A stretch of 64,000 bases of DNA from a virus (IMGVR_UViG_3300047476_000521:1-64000), one strand, 5' to 3'; shown: positions 10,057 to 64,000, counted from the stretch's first letter. The notes: a model not told the origin generated them from the letters alone. A program made the numbers and translations.

Positions 10057-10287
10057 ATGCCAGCAAGAATTACTAAGACCAGTCCATTTACTGATCGTAC
10101 TCATACTATGCAGTTTGACCTATACGATCAGGACGAATTCGAATTACGCCTATTAGCATGGCGTCGAGGGGATAAGTTAATTCAAGAGGCGTTTCCGGAG
10201 CTATCATCCGACGCCCGAGAATTCATCAAAAGCGGCGTGACGCCCGATGAATGGCGTAAGTATATGGGAGAAGAAGATGAAGCCTAG
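10057..10287 (+). CDS. Conserved phage hypothetical protein, 76 aa
   Basis: MPARITKTSPFTDRTHTMQF... The second half (LIQEAFPELSSDAREFIKSG, then VTPDEWRKYMG) is a helical motif I have seen in small phage proteins that sit in similar gene clusters. No catalytic residues are evident. No strong ribosome site: AGGATAATAAC precedes the ATG. In frame with the upstream gene across its amber stop. Confidence 0.7.
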   Translation: MPARITKTSPFTDRTHTMQFDLYDQDEFELRLLAWRRGDKLIQEAFPELSSDAREFIKSGVTPDEWRKYMGEEDEA

Positions 10288-10372
10288 TATGTTTGGTGTT
10301 ACAATTGGCGTGGCTTATACTATTACAGTATCATATGTTATTAGTTTAATCGTCAAGGGATTATACGGCTGA
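10277..10372 (+). CDS. Single-TM peptide, 31 aa
   Basis: MKPSMFGVTIGVAYTITVSY..., nearly all of it one membrane helix. GGGAGAAG lies upstream in the end of the previous gene, which it overlaps by 11 bp. Its TGA stop is the first TGA of the 12-bp repeat array that follows. Too short for the usual ORF cut-off, but spacing and coupling support it. Confidence 0.55.
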   Translation: MKPSMFGVTIGVAYTITVSYVISLIVKGLYG

Positions 10373-10441
10373 CCTATGATGTGACCAACCCGCTGACCAA
10401 CTTAATGACCAGCGGGTTGACCAACTTAATGACCTATTAAT
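10370..10441. repeat. 12-bp TGACC repeat array A (6 units)
   Basis: TGACC occurs at 10370, 10382, 10394, 10406, 10418 and 10430, exactly every 12 bp. Units read TGACCTATGATG, TGACCAACCCGC, TGACCAACTTAA, TGACCAGCGGGT, TGACCAACTTAA, TGACCTATTAAT. The array fills the whole gap between two convergent stop codons. CCCGCTG (10389-10395) and CAGCGGG (10410-10416) form a 7-bp stem within it. Confidence 0.9.
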
Positions 10442-10586
10442 CGTCCAATGCGGCGTCGTAATAACCTTCCTTCCATTCTTCCCAGAGCGGTTCTTCCGCA
10501 CCCCACGCATTGTAGGGATTATCATTCACCGACTGGTCGTTAAGATAGGCGTTATAGCCTTCCCAATAAGCTTCTGACCTATTCAT
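10437..10586 (-). CDS. Rmf/CrpP-like small protein, 49 aa
   Basis: MNRSEAYWEGYNAYLNDQSV...NPYNAWGAEEPLWEEWKEGYYDA. The pattern A-x2-(E/R)GYxA...(N/C)PY...W-x2-GY/W matches the ribosome modulation factor fold family (Rmf is 55 aa in E. coli and dimerises ribosomes on starvation). Unlike Rmf, this protein is acidic rather than basic, so direct rRNA binding is doubtful; an Rmf antagonist or a different target is possible. The ATG is embedded in repeat array B. Confidence 0.6.
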   Translation of the reverse strand: MNRSEAYWEGYNAYLNDQSVNDNPYNAWGAEEPLWEEWKEGYYDAALDD

Positions 10587-10634
10587 TGACCTATCCTTTG
10601 ACCAACCGATTGACCAACTCCTCGGCCAATTTGC
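10575..10634. repeat. 12-bp TGACC repeat array B (4-5 units)
   Basis: TGACC at 10575, 10587, 10599 and 10611 (units TGACCTATTCAT, TGACCTATCCTT, TGACCAACCGAT, TGACCAACTCCT), then a degenerate CGGCC at 10623. It spans the junction between the leftward genes at 10591 and 10586, covering the stop of one and the start of the other. Confidence 0.85.
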
Positions 10635-10872
10635 TTTTACCGCCGATATGCCAGTTGTACATACCTTTGGGCGTCTTATGCTCTTTCCAATCATAGATAG
10701 TAGCAACTACCTGATTATCAATCACGATTTGCCATTCGCAAGTAACCTTTTCGCCATCACCAGTATAATGAGGCTCGCCTAGCTTTTCTACCAGCGTCTT
10801 ATAGTCAGTCATAACATAACCTACAAGACCAGTCATAGCAACTTCATTCTGAGTAGCTTTACGAAAGTTCAT
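10591..10872 (-). CDS. Hypothetical protein, 93 aa
   Basis: MNFRKATQNEVAMTGLVGYV...; start preceded by GGAGAATACT. The first half is helical; the second half has strands with CEWQIVIDNQVVATIYDWKE and the C-terminal helix LAEELVNRLVKG. The segment YDTK-LVEKLGEPHY/W...TYDW resembles small phage proteins of unknown role. Its last codons lie in repeat array B. Confidence 0.75.
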   Translation of the reverse strand: MNFRKATQNEVAMTGLVGYVMTDYKTLVEKLGEPHYTGDGEKVTCEWQIVIDNQVVATIYDWKEHKTPKGMYNWHIGGKSKLAEELVNRLVKG

Positions 10873-10882
10873 AGTATTCTCC

Positions 10883-11188
10883 TTACTTAGAGTCAAATTT
10901 GGCTTTCAGGCGTTCAAACTCTTTTAATTCTGCTTCATTGCGAAGCTTTTCCCATCTTTTTTCGTTCTCAATTCGAACAGCCATTTCTCCATCAGTTTCT
11001 TCTCGTTCGGCACACACATAAAGATACTCTCTATCGGAGTATGCTTCGCTATGTGAATCAATATAGGCGTCTTTGCCATATTTGTCAATAAGATATTGAA
11101 TACGCTCGAGCGCCTGCCCGAGTTTAGAATAATCAATATCTAAGCTTTCGGCGGCATACTTGATAGTTTTTCTTTTACGATCAACCAT
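10883..11188 (-). CDS. Charged helical hypothetical protein, 101 aa
   Basis: The second of two close ATGs (MVDRKRKTIKYAAESLD) is chosen because GGAG lies 7 bp upstream; the first would be only 1-2 bp away. Mostly helical and highly charged, with a C-terminal coiled-coil-like stretch (EKRWEKLRNEAELKEFERLK). No family recognised. Second gene of the leftward operon behind the 11364 promoter. Confidence 0.75.
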   Translation of the reverse strand: MVDRKRKTIKYAAESLDIDYSKLGQALERIQYLIDKYGKDAYIDSHSEAYSDREYLYVCAEREETDGEMAVRIENEKRWEKLRNEAELKEFERLKAKFDSK

Positions 11189-11201
11189 AGTCATTCTCCT
11201 A

Positions 11202-11339
11202 TTAGTGCATTTCAATATAACCAGTATAACCCTGGTCTTCGGCGTTTTCCAAATGAGCGACGGCCATTTCCTCGGAGTCAAAAACTCCCCAAACGGAATA
11301 TTCTTTACCGTCGTGAATTAATACGGCGTAGACTTTCAT
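11202..11339 (-). CDS. Hypothetical protein, 45 aa
   Basis: MKVYAVLIHDGKEYSVWGVF..., with GGAGAGCGAGCT before the ATG. Its opening resembles the 17695 gene (MKVYAVVTPL), both combining MKVYAV with a following Ala-rich helix, so the two may share a small alpha/beta fold. First gene after the promoter at 11364-11392. Confidence 0.7.
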   Translation of the reverse strand: MKVYAVLIHDGKEYSVWGVFDSEEMAVAHLENAEDQGYTGYIEMH

Positions 11340-11363
11340 AGCTCGCTCTCCTATCTTGTTTTA

Positions 11364-11392
11364 ATTATAGCTCGGATCGCGAGATTTGTCAA
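11364..11392 (-). promoter_or_regulatory. Sigma70-type promoter, leftward
   Basis: Minus strand TTGACA (11392-11387), 17 bp, TATAAT (11369-11364): both boxes perfect. Divergent from the rightward promoter starting 46 bp away. Confidence 0.9.
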
Positions 11393-11437
11393 GCGTTGCC
11401 TAGACCGTGAGGCGAAATTTTTTCACTACGGCCAAGC

Positions 11438-11466
11438 TTGACTTTTTTCCAGATCCGAGGTATTAT
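11438..11466 (+). promoter_or_regulatory. Sigma70-type promoter, rightward
   Basis: TTGACT (11438-11443) followed by TTTTTCC, 17-bp spacer, TATTAT (11461-11466). A GAAATTTTTTC tract lies about 18 bp upstream. Drives 11491-12399. Confidence 0.8.
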
Positions 11467-11490
11467 TAATATACGATGAGGAGAAAGCGA

Positions 11491-11700
11491 ATGAATAAGG
11501 GCGAATATAAAATTATAATTGGCGCTTTTGAGTTCGGCGGCATATCCCCTGAACCTATTCAAGAGGCTTATGACACGGCTGATAGTTTTTATGAACCTGG
11601 GCTAGATATGACAGTCCTAGTTTATTTAGACGAGTGGGGCGACGATACATTTGTCGAATTGCCTTATGCCGGTCCTTCAAAGGAGAAATCAAATGAATAA
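11491..11700 (+). CDS. Hypothetical protein, 69 aa
   Basis: MNKGEYKIIIGAFEFGGISP..., start after GAGGAGAAAGCGA; five codons upstream is another ATG without its own site. Acidic, with beta strands and a Pro/Gly-rich loop. Function unknown. Overlaps the next gene by 8 bp. Confidence 0.7.
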   Translation: MNKGEYKIIIGAFEFGGISPEPIQEAYDTADSFYEPGLDMTVLVYLDEWGDDTFVELPYAGPSKEKSNE

Positions 11701-11878
11701 GATTGTTAACTACGTAGTATGGAGCGTAATTATTGGTACGTTTGCCCTTATTGGGTATTACGGTTATATTAGTCATTCGATGCTCAGGGATTGTATTGAG
11801 TCAAATGACCCTGGTAGTAAGGCTTGCTTTAAGTATAGCGTTTACTCCGGCCAGATGAGGAACGTAAATGTCTATTAA
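11693..11878 (+). CDS. Single-TM small protein, 61 aa
   Basis: MNKIVNYVVWSVIIGTFALIGYYGY: one membrane helix, then a short Cys-containing tail (LRDCIESNDPGSKACFKY). Layout is like the TM-plus-two-Cys proteins at 9124 and 25040, though without the GVP motif. AGGAG upstream. Probably inner-membrane with the tail outside. Confidence 0.7.
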   Translation: MNKIVNYVVWSVIIGTFALIGYYGYISHSMLRDCIESNDPGSKACFKYSVYSGQMRNVNVY

Positions 11879-12077
11879 GATTATAACTTCATATGAAGAC
11901 CCGGAGTTTAAGCTATATGAGAATTATTTCTGGAAGTTCTCGCCCGATGACTGGGATTATATTATCATTGGCGAGAACTCACACGAGGTAGAGAGTATAG
12001 CCGAGAAGCTATATGTATGTGATTATCAAATGAAGGAGTTTGATAATCTTTACGTTGCCGTAACATATCACTCTTAA
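11868..12077 (+). CDS. Hypothetical acidic protein, 69 aa
   Basis: MSIKIITSYEDPEFKLYENY..., ATG preceded by GAGGAAC and overlapping the previous gene by 11 bp. Aromatic and acidic; no motif I recognise. Part of the 11.5-12.4 kb rightward unit. Confidence 0.7.
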   Translation: MSIKIITSYEDPEFKLYENYFWKFSPDDWDYIIIGENSHEVESIAEKLYVCDYQMKEFDNLYVAVTYHS

Positions 12078-12095
12078 TTCCTTGAGGAGCGTCGA

Positions 12096-12254
12096 ATGAA
12101 TCCAATTCTTAAATCATTTCTAATTGCAGTGGGAATAATCCTATCCCTTATCCTATTTGTGGCGATTATTCTATTAGTTCCATTTGGGTCACTAATCCTA
12201 GGCTTTCTAGCCATTTGGGGTCTTGTATATGCTATCCTAACGGGGAGAGTTTAA
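12096..12254 (+). CDS. Two-TM hydrophobic peptide, 52 aa
   Basis: MNPILKSFLIAVGIILSLIL...LLVPFGSLILGFLAIWGLVYA: two adjacent membrane helices and almost nothing else. GAGGAGCGTCGA precedes the ATG. Such mini membrane proteins recur through this region; possible roles include membrane modification or superinfection exclusion, not shown by the sequence. Confidence 0.65.
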   Translation: MNPILKSFLIAVGIILSLILFVAIILLVPFGSLILGFLAIWGLVYAILTGRV

Positions 12255-12255
12255 A

Positions 12256-12399
12256 GTGAAAACCCTATTCTATTGGCTGGCTATCTTTAGTATATTCCTA
12301 GTTGTATTATCTGAAACCCATGAAAAGCGAATAGAGATTTCTCTTATGGCTGTAATTGACCTACTATTCGCTTTATATTGGCAGAGGGAAGAGCGATGA
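12256..12399 (+). CDS. Membrane peptide, 47 aa
   Basis: GTG start one base after the previous stop, with GGGGAGAG upstream. MKTLFYWLAIFSIFLVVLSE is a membrane helix or signal anchor, and a second hydrophobic stretch (ISLMAVIDLLFALYW) follows. Its TGA stop is the first TGA of repeat array C. Confidence 0.6.
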   Translation: MKTLFYWLAIFSIFLVVLSETHEKRIEISLMAVIDLLFALYWQREER

Positions 12400-12420
12400 C
12401 CAACTTAATGACCTATGAGG
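12397..12420. repeat. 12-bp TGACC repeat array C (2 units)
   Basis: TGACCAACTTAA at 12397 and TGACCTATGAGG at 12409. As in array A, the first unit begins at the stop codon of the rightward gene. The following 12421-12553 stretch holds no convincing gene; a 26-codon frame from about 12456 lacks a clear ribosome site. Confidence 0.85.
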
Positions 12421-12553
12421 CTTAATACCCGAGAATGAATATGAGTTAATATGGTATGGAAAAGGAGTATTTTAAATCCCGTTTATTTTATCGTAGCGAG
12501 GATTGGTCCGTGTCGCTGTGTGTCTGTGGATACTAATGCGTGCTGGTGCTGGT

Positions 12554-12625
12554 TGACCTATTAGCTGACCAACTAATAAACCAACTTAGTGACCTATACG
12601 CTGACCAACTTAGTAATCAGCGACC
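12554..12625. repeat. 12-bp TGACC repeat array D (4 exact, 2 degenerate units)
   Basis: TGACC at 12554, 12566, 12590 and 12602, with degenerate units in phase at 12578 (AAACC) and 12614 (TAATC). Units include TGACCTATTAGC, TGACCAACTAAT, TGACCTATACGC and TGACCAACTTAG. The array ends at the stop codon of the leftward gene at 12610. Confidence 0.85.
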
Positions 12626-12831
12626 AATTGACCATTACTATCAATATACACGAAAACATGACCAGTAGCCATAACACCAAAGTCATTATACTTGATAGTA
12701 TATTTGACCTGGCCTTTATTGGTGCTGGTATAAGAAGCCGAATGAATTTCATTTGAGCTCTCTATATAACCTGTTTCTTCAAGCAGGTTAACCAGCTGAT
12801 TACGGGTGAGTTTAGTAAGATCAGTAATCAT
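12610..12831 (-). CDS. Hypothetical protein, 73 aa
   Basis: MITDLTKLTRNQLVNLLEET... then a beta-rich half (KGQVKYTIKYNDFGVMATGH, FVYIDSNGQLVADY). AGGAGAATGAT precedes the start. Helix-then-sheet layout, no recognised family. Third gene of the leftward operon from the 13285 promoter; its stop codon is inside repeat array D. Confidence 0.7.
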   Translation of the reverse strand: MITDLTKLTRNQLVNLLEETGYIESSNEIHSASYTSTNKGQVKYTIKYNDFGVMATGHVFVYIDSNGQLVADY

Positions 12832-16174: not shown

Positions 16175-16207
16175 GTTCATCTCATACCGAACTCTGGAGG
16201 ATTGATT

Positions 16208-16327
16208 ATGGTTGTCTATTACACTCGCTGGCTCAATCTTTTTGTTACTGATTACATTATCAGCGATGTGAAGCCATATAGCTGCGATGCATCCTGGTGG
16301 ATTGTTCCTGGAACTCTGGAGGATTGA
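16208..16327 (+). CDS. Mini-protein, SWWIVPGT family, copy 1, 39 aa
   Basis: MVVYYTRWLNLFVTDYIISD then VKPYSCDASWWIVPGTLED. TGGAGGATTGATT precedes the ATG. The second half is repeated in the next gene, with 48 bp identical at DNA level (16264-16311 and 16392-16439), so the duplication is recent. A more distant relative at 18664 ends SEWLVPGT. Function unknown. Confidence 0.7.
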   Translation: MVVYYTRWLNLFVTDYIISDVKPYSCDASWWIVPGTLED

Positions 16328-16329
16328 TT

Positions 16330-16461
16330 ATGATCGTTGTATATTACGCTCCCTGTTTTAACGTTTTTTCTGTTACTGGTTACAATTTCAACGATGTGAA
16401 GCCATATAGCTGCGATGCATCCTGGTGGATTGTTCCTGGCACTATCAATCTGGAGAAGTGA
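16330..16461 (+). CDS. Mini-protein, SWWIVPGT family, copy 2, 43 aa
   Basis: MIVVYYAPCFNVFSVTGYNF then NDVKPYSCDASWWIVPGTIN. Same upstream site (TGGAGGATTGATT) as copy 1. The N-terminal half has diverged, while the C-terminal half is identical, which points to gene conversion or selection on that half. Confidence 0.7.
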   Translation: MIVVYYAPCFNVFSVTGYNFNDVKPYSCDASWWIVPGTINLEK

Positions 16462-26515: not shown

Positions 26516-26706
26516 TAAAGGAACTGATCATACTGGCGCAGGTGGCTAATACAATTCCTCCTGCTGACATTATGAGAAATGACATTCCGACTTATTCATG
26601 GGAAAGGCCAACACAGCCACCGAGATATCAAGTTCCTGCTACTGGTATTTACTCGGCAGGATCTAGACCTCCTCCGATTTCGTTTGAAGAGGTTGAAGTA
26701 GAATAA
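26512..26706 (+). CDS. Pro-rich small protein, 64 aa
   Basis: MIKELIILAQVANTIPPADI..., Pro-rich and probably disordered (SWERPTQPPRYQVPATGIYS). ATGA overlap with the previous gene. Its stop codon overlaps the late-like element in front of the tmRNA gene. Confidence 0.6.
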   Translation: MIKELIILAQVANTIPPADIMRNDIPTYSWERPTQPPRYQVPATGIYSAGSRPPPISFEEVEVE

Positions 26707-26709
26707 ATA
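26702..26709 (+). promoter_or_regulatory. Late-type element before the tmRNA gene
   Basis: AATAAATA, one mismatch from TATAAATA, placed so that transcription would start near 26715, just inside the expected acceptor piece. Weak evidence because the motif is short and AT-rich. Confidence 0.35.
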
Positions 26710-26995
26710 GAATTGCCAAAGGTCGTTGAGAGACGAAACATAGGTTTCTTGGACGTGGGTGCGATTCCCACCGTCTCCACCATGGATACATTCAACCATA
26801 CACACCTGGTGCTAACTAGGTTGCGCAGCCGAAAAGACGTAGAGAAAGAGTCTGTTAGCGGAATGTATCTTTGATGGGGACGAACAGGTTCGACAGGATT
26901 CAGTAAGGTCGTAAGGAGACTGTAGGCATTTATAGGTGCAAACGATAACTTCGCACCATTTGAGATGGCACTAGCTGCTTAATCTCATTGGGTTG
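26710..26995 (+). ncRNA. ssrA: Circularly permuted (two-piece) tmRNA
   Basis: The tRNA-like 3' part comes first: T arm GTGGG-TGCGATT-CCCAC (26755-26771), acceptor strand CGTCTCC, A73, CCA at 26780-26782. A 93-nt intervening segment (26783-26875) follows, whose ends pair (GATACATTC 26785-26793 with GAATGTATC 26861-26869; GCTAAC 26811-26816 with GTTAGC 26854-26859). The 5' part starts GGGGACG at 26876 and pairs with CGTCTCC, including the G3-U70 alanine determinant. The tag frame from the resume GCA at 26938 to TAA at 26980-26982 reads ANDNFAPFEMALAA. This is the permuted ssrA layout of alphaproteobacteria. The product would rescue stalled ribosomes and tag proteins for proteolysis. The outer 5' boundary is approximate. 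Confidence 0.93.
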
Positions 26996-27028
26996 GCAAC
27001 TTCCTAGAAACAGAATAGTTGCTTTTTT
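26996..27028 (+). terminator. Terminator after the tmRNA coding piece
   Basis: GCAACT (26996-27001) pairs with AGTTGC (27017-27022), followed directly by TTTTTT. The GCAACT/AGTTGC stem may also form the 3' end of the precursor. Confidence 0.75.
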
Positions 27029-27044
27029 CATTTTGGAGTTTATA

Positions 27045-27242
27045 ATGACCGATCAAAAAGACAAATACACCGGCATGCGTGAGTTTAATTTTGCATTGAG
27101 CACTAATGTCTATATCTGTGCAGCAGCAGGAGCTTTTCTAGGAGCAATTCTAGGTTATTGGGCGACAGGATTAGTAGAGATCTCTGTAGCTTCGTCAATC
27201 ACTTTCTTAGTTCTTTCTGGTATCTTTGGGATGTTTGTGTAA
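27045..27242 (+). CDS. Two-TM protein, 65 aa
   Basis: MTDQKDKYTGMREFNFALST then two membrane helices with Gly/Ala-rich faces (AAAGAFLGAILGYWATG; ITFLVLSGIFGMFV). TTGGAG precedes the ATG; a longer frame upstream runs into the tmRNA. The GAFLGAILG glycine pattern suggests helix packing. Function unknown. Confidence 0.65.
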   Translation: MTDQKDKYTGMREFNFALSTNVYICAAAGAFLGAILGYWATGLVEISVASSITFLVLSGIFGMFV

Positions 27243-61387: not shown

Positions 61388-64000
61388 ATGGCTAATACGG
61401 TTTTTAAACTTCGCCGCTCTTCTGTAGCAGGCAAAGTTCCAAATACATCCACGCTTTCTATTGGTGAATTAGCCATAAATTTGACTGATAAGATTCTTTA
61501 TTCGTCAGATGGATCTAATGTATTTGAAATAGGTTCGAACCTTTCAAATATAAGCGTTTCTTCTAATGCCTCTATCAACAATTTAATAGTTGATTCTGTT
61601 TATGCCAATGGTTCATTAGGCGTAAGCGGTCAAGTTCTTTCCTCTAATGGTTCACAAGTTTTCTGGGCGACAGCAGGAACAGGAACAGTAAATGAAATAA
61701 ACACGGCAAATGGCCTAGTAGGCGGACCAATCACCACAAACGGAACAATATATGTTCTTGCTAATAACGGTATTGTTTCTAATACATCAGGTTTGTTTGT
61801 AAATGCTTCGTATATTGCTACATTAAATGCAAATAACGCAACAACTGTTGGTGGTAATACTTCTTCAGATTTAAGATCTTATTCTGAATCAACAGCATCT
61901 AATGCTTATTCTAATGCTGTATCGTATGTTGATGGTAAAATTGCTACTGCTAATGCAGCTATTACTAGTAATGCAGCTACTGCTTATTCTAATGCTGTAT
62001 CGTATGTTGATGGTAAAATTGCTACTGCTAATGCAGCTATTACTAGTAATGCAGCTACTGCTTATTCTAATGCTATAGCTTTTGCTTCAAACGCCTCTAA
62101 TATTAATACAGGAACTTTAGCAGAAGCCAGACTTCCATATCGTATGGATCAAAACGTTCGTACTAACGATACAGTTACGTTCGGTAATATTACAGTTTCT
62201 GGTAATCTAACAGTTAATGGCACTACTATTACCTTACAAGGTAATACTGTTAGCTTTACTGATAATATGTTATATTTGAATCAAGGAATATCAGCGAATA
62301 TCACTAATATCTCCGGTAATGGAACTTATGTAACATTTACTGCTAACAATAATTATTCTACTGGTTGGGACGTAACAATAACTGGGGTTAACCCTTCTTC
62401 GTATAATGGTAATTATAATAACATTTTCTTGGCTAATGCAACGCATTTCGTAGTAGCTAACACTAATACTGCTTCTTATGTTTCTGGCGGTGTTGCTAGA
62501 GGCAAAACAGATTCGAATCCAGATTTAGGTTTTGCTGCTGGTTATAATGATGGAACATATCAGCACGCCGGATTCTTTAGAGATGCATCTGATGGTATCT
62601 GGAAAGTTTTTGATGGGTATTTACCAGAACCAGATCAAAGCGTATTCATCGATACTACAAATACAAGTTTTAAGGTAGCAAATTTCCAGGCAAATACATA
62701 CTTTGCTGGTAATACAAGCACTAACTGGTTTGTTGCTAATGGTTCAGGAGCGTATCATACAGGAACAGTTAACGCTGCTAGTCATACAGTAGGAACTTCA
62801 TTTACTGCTAATTCCACTATGACTAATACTGTTTCTTTGGTAGTTTCTACTAATACAGCTACTATCGGAACTGGAACATATTTTGTTGCCAATGGTAATG
62901 TTGGTATTGGAACTTCAACACCAGGGTATAAGTTAGAGGTAAACGGCGAAACAAGAATATTGAACAATCGTTTCGCAAGCGGTTCAATTGAGGTCAATGG
63001 ATTAGGGACCGGAAATCGTTACGCTCTTATTGATTTTATAGGTGACGATACTTACACCGATTATGGTTTAAGAATCATTAGAGACAATGTTGGAGCAAAT
63101 AGCGGTTCTGAAATTAGCCATCGTGGTACAGGGCAGTTAGGATTAAAGACAATAGAAGCTGCTCCCATAACATTTTATACAAATAACGCCGAACGTATGC
63201 GAATCGCATCTGATGGAACTATATCTGTTGGAACTACAACAACAGGTTCAGTTTCTATGTTGTTTGGCGGTAATGCTCCTGCTGTCGCTGCGGCTAGAAC
63301 TTTACAAGCGGCGCAATTAATTTCGTCATCAACGACGACAAATTTTATTAATATTGCTTCTTATCCTTCTGTTGCAAACGCAGTATTTACTCTACCTAAT
63401 TTGTATCATTTTCTTGCAGGACAAGCAACATACGGTGCGTCTGCAACTATAACAAGTCAGTCTGGGTTTTATGTTGCATCATCTCTTACTGGAGCAACTA
63501 ATAACTACGGATTTCGTAGTGATATTCCTAGTGGAACTGGTCGTTGGAATGTTTACTCTGGCGGCACTGCTGATAACTTTTTTGCAGGTAATGTTGGTAT
63601 AGGAACTAATTCACCAAGCAATTTATTAGATGTTGCCGGTATGATTCGTATGAATTCGGCCACACAATTTAACGGTCTTACGATGCAGAATGGTACTTAT
63701 GAGTTTGCTAAACTCTATGGTCAGTCTGCTACAAACGACAATGGTGTTTTATCTTTAAACTTAGCGGGAACACCAAATGTTATACTAAGAGCTTCAGGAA
63801 TAAATTACATTAATGGTGGTAATGTTGGTATTGGCGTTAGCTCTCCATCTCAAAAACTTGATGTAGCTGGAATAATTACCAATCGTGGCGCTGCTTCTGT
63901 TGGTTGGGTTAATATATCCCAAGGAGATACTAGAACTGGTTTTACTGATTATATGTATGCAAATTCACAAAGCGTTGGATTTGTTGGATATGGCGACAGT
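61388..64000 (+). CDS. Tail-fibre protein, partial (cut by the window end), at least 871 aa
   Basis: Opens KLRRSSVAGKVPNTSTLSIG and ELAINLTDKILYSSDGSNVF (attachment motif as in 58767) after GGGAGCCTAGA. Contains a 26-residue repeat (AYSNAVSYVDGKIATANAAI...) at about residues 173-225, then three NVGIG blocks typical of fibre knobs: GNVGIGTSTPGYKLEVNG, GNVGIGTNSPSNLLDVAG, GNVGIGVSSPSQKLDVAG. The frame is open to the last base, so the C-terminus, possibly an S74-type self-cleaving chaperone, lies outside. Confidence 0.85.
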   Translation, partial: MANTVFKLRRSSVAGKVPNTSTLSIGELAINLTDKILYSSDGSNVFEIGSNLSNISVSSNASINNLIVDSVYANGSLGVSGQVLSSNGSQVFWATAGTGTVNEINTANGLVGGPITTNGTIYVLANNGIVSNTSGLFVNASYIATLNANNATTVGGNTSSDLRSYSESTASNAYSNAVSYVDGKIATANAAITSNAATAYSNAVSYVDGKIATANAAITSNAATAYSNAIAFASNASNINTGTLAEARLPYRMDQNVRTNDTVTFGNITVSGNLTVNGTTITLQGNTVSFTDNMLYLNQGISANITNISGNGTYVTFTANNNYSTGWDVTITGVNPSSYNGNYNNIFLANATHFVVANTNTASYVSGGVARGKTDSNPDLGFAAGYNDGTYQHAGFFRDASDGIWKVFDGYLPEPDQSVFIDTTNTSFKVANFQANTYFAGNTSTNWFVANGSGAYHTGTVNAASHTVGTSFTANSTMTNTVSLVVSTNTATIGTGTYFVANGNVGIGTSTPGYKLEVNGETRILNNRFASGSIEVNGLGTGNRYALIDFIGDDTYTDYGLRIIRDNVGANSGSEISHRGTGQLGLKTIEAAPITFYTNNAERMRIASDGTISVGTTTTGSVSMLFGGNAPAVAAARTLQAAQLISSSTTTNFINIASYPSVANAVFTLPNLYHFLAGQATYGASATITSQSGFYVASSLTGATNNYGFRSDIPSGTGRWNVYSGGTADNFFAGNVGIGTNSPSNLLDVAGMIRMNSATQFNGLTMQNGTYEFAKLYGQSATNDNGVLSLNLAGTPNVILRASGINYINGGNVGIGVSSPSQKLDVAGIITNRGAASVGWVNISQGDTRTGFTDYMYANSQSVGFVGYGDS
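61904..62074 (+). repeat. 78-bp tandem repeat in the last fibre gene
   Basis: Two identical 78-bp units (61904-61981 and 61982-62059) plus the first 15 bp of a third. Each encodes 26 residues (AYSNAVSYVDGKIATANAAI then TSNAAT). Exact identity shows recent expansion. Confidence 0.9.

Follow-up and report, generated by a model that had tools for sequence, protein, structure and literature searches.

Polar tandem arrays of a 12-bp motif at operon ends in uncultivated T4-like phages

The first 64,000 nucleotides of the uncultivated virus record IMGVR_UViG_3300047476_000521 (136,102 bp in full; the analyzed part is hereafter called the window) contain four arrays of a 12-bp repeat, TGACC(AAC/TAT)NNNN, which lie among small genes at positions 10370–12625. 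The arrays keep a fixed core and a strict 12-bp period, and about ten other uncultivated phages, most if not all of them T4-like, carry the same motif at two kinds of site: the ends of transcription units and the junctions between leftward genes. At operon ends the arrays share one polarity relative to the preceding gene, and in some relatives a different device occupies the same slot. We tentatively favor a reading, to which we would not give quite an even chance, in which the arrays would act as polar operon-end punctuation via a sequence-specific binding factor and would double as a seam for gene shuffling.

All four arrays reported in the initial annotation of the window were recovered (A to D; Table 1). 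Exact TGACCN7TGACC pairs number 11 against 0.04 expected, a count reached by none of 100 dinucleotide shuffles, and no such pair lies outside the four arrays in the whole 136,102-bp record. The octamer TGACC(AAC/TAT) occurs 23 times on the + strand of the record, with 15 copies in the arrays; the copies outside them (eight on the + strand and five on the − strand) are near the 4.2 expected per strand. These counts in the arrays versus the rest of the record reject a random scatter of the motif, which the initial annotation had named as the observation that would speak against it. As also described there, arrays A and C begin at the TGA stops of rightward open reading frames (ORFs; called, like the other genes here, with a simple ORF finder written for this analysis), and two leftward genes, the one at 10437–10586 that resembles ribosome modulation factor (the RMF-like gene) and gene Y, stop within the last intact units of arrays A and D, respectively. 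The placement of the arrays at convergent junctions holds for A and fails for B, which sits between two leftward genes and spans the stop of gene X together with the Shine-Dalgarno sequence and start of the RMF-like gene.

Within the unit, eight of the 12 positions are fixed and four are free. Across phages the core reads YGACCWAY, once per 12 bp, and a tally over 23 arrays from about ten phages, biased by the search-based selection of units, gave 86 intact and 22 degenerate units. The degenerate units keep ACC, with changes mostly at T1 (to C) or G2 and with positions 9–12 free, and internal gap units that had not been selected likewise keep ACC (AAACCAACTTAG, TTACCTATCGGT, CTACCAATACGC). Given this combination of fixed and free positions, the arrays look like repeated recognition sites and not like recent duplications. 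A coding repeat was rejected, as the same arrays cross different reading frames and gene ends, which argues that selection acts on the DNA or RNA.

To place the motif in a wider setting, IMG/VR was scanned for three consecutive TGACCWA units, with the reversed pattern as a control. The scan returned 53 non-redundant matches, 22 of them with variable spacers and the longest with nine units. The control returned at least 79 matches; among the matches listed, eight had variable spacers and none exceeded three units. The pattern as such was therefore rejected as meaningful across the collection, its reversed control being at least as common, and most matches outside this group of phages are in-frame coding repeats. 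Among the matches listed, long arrays with variable spacers came only from the true motif; such arrays are therefore specific to it and occur mainly in the window phage's relatives. A scan of bacterial genomes yielded many loci. A BLAST search of the array region against phage records gave no match, Rfam gave no meaningful match for the arrays, and nothing alike turned up in the papers searched on phage intergenic tandem repeats.

The MPARI gene served as an anchor for locating relatives, most of which are genome fragments. Arrays are carried by L020, L022, L030, L034/L154, L032/L152, L147/L149/L150, L185, and L219, plus L018 and L203. By visual inspection L018 has T4-like neighbors, a DNA-polymerase-like ORF among them, and L203 shares the spanin neighborhood of L018. 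The gene order in relatives comprises a rightward MPARI gene, usually with a small membrane ORF, then an array, then the leftward genes P, X, Y, and Z, with arrays at some of the junctions between the latter.

Ten arrays are of the operon-end type: A and C in the window and those of L020, L147, L152, L154, L219, L018, L203, and L185. In all ten, TGACC reads in the sense of the preceding gene, and in nine the array starts exactly at the TGA stop of that gene (4 nt later in L185), although many of the arrays are homologous and these counts are not independent. The last gene before the array varies, being the small membrane ORF for window array A, L020, L147, L154, and L219, MPARI itself in L152 and L185, an unrelated ORF for window array C, and a spanin-like lipoprotein in L018 (with an Rz-like spanin match) and L203. 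L185 has no convergent gene; its MPARI is followed by the array, about 540 bp of non-coding sequence, a promoter, and a co-directional operon. Since the downstream gene is co-directional and has its own promoter, ~490 bp beyond the array, the array is to be assigned to the end of the preceding unit. About 15–20 MPARI homologs lying within co-directional operons (including those of DLP6, CRP-4, and DSS3_VP1) had no array.

In the arrays at leftward junctions, the outermost unit holds the Shine-Dalgarno sequence of the next gene (GGAGATAGGTC-ATG in L020, L147, L152, L154, and L030, and AAGGA in window array B). Gene content differs at the arrays as well. Around X, L147 is almost the same as L020 (93%), yet one L147 array contains 147 extra bases. 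This insert is a 41-codon ORF with a GTG start and with array units on both sides; the array's own Shine-Dalgarno sequence lies ahead of it and its TAG end lies inside a unit. The L147 array L147_c looks chimeric, with units of two L020 arrays. Compared with relatives, the window has an extra gene, the RMF-like one, separating array A from array B. It also has a block of two leftward and several rightward genes between X and Y; in relatives, X and Y adjoin each other with an array in between. On these comparisons, the arrays are sites of small-gene gain and loss.

The slot held by operon-end arrays is filled by other devices in some relatives. In L153, whose gene order is kept, no TGACC pair occurs in the 45-kb record; the homologous convergent junction instead holds a canonical bidirectional intrinsic terminator (AAAAGCCCGGAGAGATCCGGGCTTTT then ATTTTATA, with a T tail in reverse also), and the X/Y junction is just a 12-nt spacer with a Shine-Dalgarno sequence. 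Absence from homologous junctions of close relatives, the second observation that had been named as counting against the element, is thus true of L153 only. The X protein of L153 is 91–92% identical to those of the array-bearing L020 and L147 (the X proteins of L152 and L154, also array-bearing, are 69–76% identical to these), for which reason the simplest reading is that L153 probably lost its arrays. In the more distant L225 (2232–2317) and L215 (1022–1110), the MPARI homolog is followed by a 21-bp hairpin-forming tandem repeat, GTCACTACAGTAGGTGATCGT, which starts right at the stop codon of this MPARI-family gene. The window itself has a bidirectional intrinsic terminator at its convergent junction 29929/29960 and none at the array A junction.

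Array A also contains the 7-bp inverted repeat noted in the initial annotation (Table 1). This repeat is real and exceeds chance in a null model in which only the free (variable) positions were shuffled: none of 500 shuffles matched the folding energy of array A on the forward strand, with p = 0.002 on the reverse strand. The excess over chance reached p ≤ 0.002 in the window, L020, and L147; for L219 and L152 it was seen on the reverse strand (p = 0.002 and p = 0.024, respectively), the L152 counterpart (AACTCG/CGAGTT) showing one compensatory pair change relative to the window. By the same shuffles, L154, L018, L185, and most internal arrays showed no significant hairpin. A hairpin universal to the arrays was accordingly rejected, its significance being confined to array A and close counterparts, and the hairpins seem auxiliary to the arrays. 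An intrinsic terminator has a GC-rich hairpin with a U tract directly behind it; no U tract follows the array A hairpin, and array A is therefore not an intrinsic terminator.

Among the functions initially suggested for the arrays, a terminator-like element fits best, and the fixed core with its free spacer supports repeated protein sites. We favor termination mainly because three different devices occupy one operon-end slot. Under this proposal, each unit would be a binding site for a sequence-specific factor; array A would halt rightward RNA polymerase just past the last gene, sparing the leftward genes, and the same-orientation copies between leftward genes would catch polymerase that had leaked through. 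Two candidates for the factor are a DNA-bound protein that blocks polymerase unidirectionally, as happens at the stoperators of mycobacteriophages, and Rho reading the RNA, with one CC per 12 nt after the stop codon. We lean toward a sequence-specific binder over Rho, as a DNA-bound protein would explain the strict core and the polarity. The repetition of the unit, the stop codons it supplies, and the Shine-Dalgarno sequences at leftward junctions suggest that the arrays would also serve as seams between small genes.

Several observations weigh against this proposal. In L020 and L147 the array is immediately followed by a separate intrinsic terminator facing rightward, and termination there may thus not be the work of the array. 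The MPARI protein of L153 is just 69–70% identical to those of L020 and L147, and the rightward side differs too; the junction may consequently have been exchanged by recombination, and the L153 terminator may have arrived within a recombined block. Several other predicted convergent junctions in the record, at some of which the gene calls are doubtful, have neither an array nor a clear terminator. Because the TGAs within an array share a single frame, the stop-codon coincidence is partly mechanical: by chance, one in three ORFs entering an array would be in the frame that stops at its first TGA. The Rho version, in turn, is weak, with sense-strand C/G ratios ranging from 0.53 (array C plus flank) to 2.4 and at about 1.0–1.1 in the arrays of L147, L020, L185, and L203.

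Other explanations for the arrays can be weighed against punctuation of operon ends. An unlikely one is that they are modular gene-junction linkers, i.e., short homologies for small-ORF recombination in this hypervariable region, without a role in termination. Linkers would account for the ORF inside the L147 array, the chimeric L147_c, and the extra window genes that separate A from B and B from D. Recombination alone, however, would homogenize all 12 positions, while neighboring units differ at the four free positions around a fixed eight, and neither the constant orientation nor the unit-end sites in L018, L203, and L185 would be predicted. We consider it less probable still that a phage regulator binds the units to control early transcription or translation of the leftward genes. 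The arrays do lie on leftward mRNAs, where they overlap Shine-Dalgarno sequences, UGGUCA could self-pair via G-U pairs, and reverse-strand folds are strong in L020_A, L147_a, and L219_a; yet the L185 array has no leftward gene nearby, and the arrays that carry Shine-Dalgarno sequences fold no better than shuffled ones.

The same low probability is assigned to plain Rho-utilization (rut) sites, for which CC every 12 nt in the untranslated RNA past the stop codon would be the relevant signal. Rho requires just pyrimidine-C. Arrays A and D rank top on the + strand of the window for in-phase YC at period 12 (a property built in by a 12-bp repeat), and degenerate units retain CC, but the fixed TGA and WA are left unexplained, and both the C/G ratio near 1 in four arrays and the stable hairpin within array A speak against Rho. 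Replication or partition iterons, an option raised in the initial annotation, are very improbable despite an iteron-like unit length and tandem layout: no replication or partition gene was recognized at the array locus, where the scanned neighbors are small function-unassigned genes and the RMF-like ORF, and the arrays follow the ends of operons whose last genes vary. Similar 12-bp TGACCAA repeats do occur inside replication-protein-like genes of L012, L027, L029, and L167, but these phages are unrelated, and their repeats are in-frame coding sequence of a kind for which the search pattern selects. As a separate observation, DQ/DL repeats in the replication-protein-like genes of these four phages and of L186 are encoded by a 12-bp TGACCWA repeat, which may represent origin iterons within the gene.

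Among described systems, the closest are the stoperators of Cluster A mycobacteriophages (L5 and relatives), which are short, asymmetric, intergenic sites, oriented with transcription and bound by protein, that stop elongation in one direction; they are single sites of 13–14 bp, number 20–30 over the genome, and are bound by a temperate-phage repressor (PMC9283540, PMC6550527). The arrays resemble them in being asymmetric, intergenic, and oriented with transcription (10/10 operon-end arrays), but differ in being 12-bp tandem arrays at two places, with a putative binder, in a T4-like phage. Dispersed single sites of the stoperator kind were not found, as octamers outside the arrays are near chance. 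The Start-Associated Sequences (SAS) of Cluster K mycobacteriophages are short asymmetric repeats in one orientation, located in the non-structural half of the genome and overlapping translation starts (PMC3203893). Unlike SAS, which are single copies at starts, the main arrays lie at operon ends; a SAS-like overlap with the Shine-Dalgarno sequence is seen only in leftward-junction arrays, with A, C, and the arrays of L018, L203, and L185 at gene ends. A rut site has been defined as 78 nt with C > G and cytosines every 11–13 nt (PMC6407284). The arrays are similar in lying in untranslated RNA past the stop codon with a cytosine every 11–13 nt over about 70–80 nt, but differ in their strict 8-base core and in a C/G near 1 in several arrays. 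Finally, the PeSL elements of T4-type phages, which are mobile regulatory cassettes, are repeated intergenic elements reportedly proposed to mediate the shuffling of small genes (Arbiol 2010, cited in PMC4177764). The gain or loss of genes between elements, as in the 147-bp insertion in L147, is PeSL-like. Unlike PeSL, which pair an early promoter with a stem-loop, the arrays are promoterless tandem 12-bp repeats; promoter-like sites are strongest in divergent regions at a distance from the arrays, and no stem-loop beyond chance was found in array B. There is no named family whose defining features the arrays all display.

The region of the arrays consists of small genes in blocks that alternate between strands, with strong sigma-70-like promoters between divergent blocks. 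Two such promoters stand back-to-back at 11364–11466 (leftward TTGACA-17-TATAAT, 12/12; rightward TTGACT-17-TATTAT). T4-like genes in the window include those for a single-stranded DNA-binding protein and baseplate proteins, and the nearest annotated baseplate wedge proteins (34–37% identical) are from Stenotrophomonas phage DLP6, Caulobacter phage Cr30, Pelagibacter phage HTVC008M, and Sinorhizobium phages. The host of the window phage may plausibly be an alphaproteobacterium. The window also encodes a transfer-messenger RNA of the alphaproteobacterial permuted (two-piece) type (26690–27073, + strand; predicted tag ANDNFAPFEMALAA) and a tRNA with anticodon CTA (916–989, − strand) that ARAGORN labels tRNA-Pyl and that is perhaps an amber suppressor. 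TAG is the stop of just 13 of the 206 predicted genes in the record, and a single TAG near record position 75229 has long open stretches on both sides. Tandem repeats of other kinds comprise a 128-bp duplication at 16189–16443 (two copies, 86% matches) and a 78-bp repeat at 61895–62074 (2.3 copies, 98% matches).

Table 1. Arrays and associated features in the window.
Feature	Position	Strand	Description
Array A	10370–10441	+	Six units; operon-end type, convergent junction
Array B	10575–10634	+	Five units, one of them degenerate; lies between two leftward genes
Array C	12397–12420	+	Two units; starts at TGA stop of ORF 12256–12399
Array D	12554–12625	+	Six units, of which four are intact and two degenerate; 3′ of leftward gene Y
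Inverted repeat AACCCGC/GCGGGTT	10387–10393/10412–10418		18-nt loop, inside array A
MPARI gene	10057–10287	+	phrog_20898, function unassigned; near end of rightward unit closed by array A
Small membrane-like ORF	10277–10372	+	Array A opens with its TGA stop
RMF-like gene	10437–10586	−	49 amino acids; Pfam RMF E = 6e-4, under curated cut-off; between arrays A and B
Shine-Dalgarno AAGGA of gene 10437–10586	10594–10598	−	Inside unit 10587–10598
Gene X	10591–10872	−	Family kept in relatives; C-terminal codons and TAG stop inside array B
Small ORF	12256–12399	+	GTG start; ends at array C
Gene Y	12610–12831	−	Ends inside array D

The element is real, unusual, and recurrent, and appears to work like known polar elements. 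A broader claim, possible but doubtful, is that it would represent a novel type of polar terminator in T4-like phages, built from tandem short sites with a dedicated factor, evolutionarily interchangeable with intrinsic terminators, and serving as a cassette seam. If true, a tandem-repeat device would join the known ways in which phages end transcription units, and a single slot would offer a natural comparison between an array, an intrinsic terminator, and a hairpin repeat. The arrays would also provide a concrete mechanism for the rearrangement of small-gene regions in T4-like phages.

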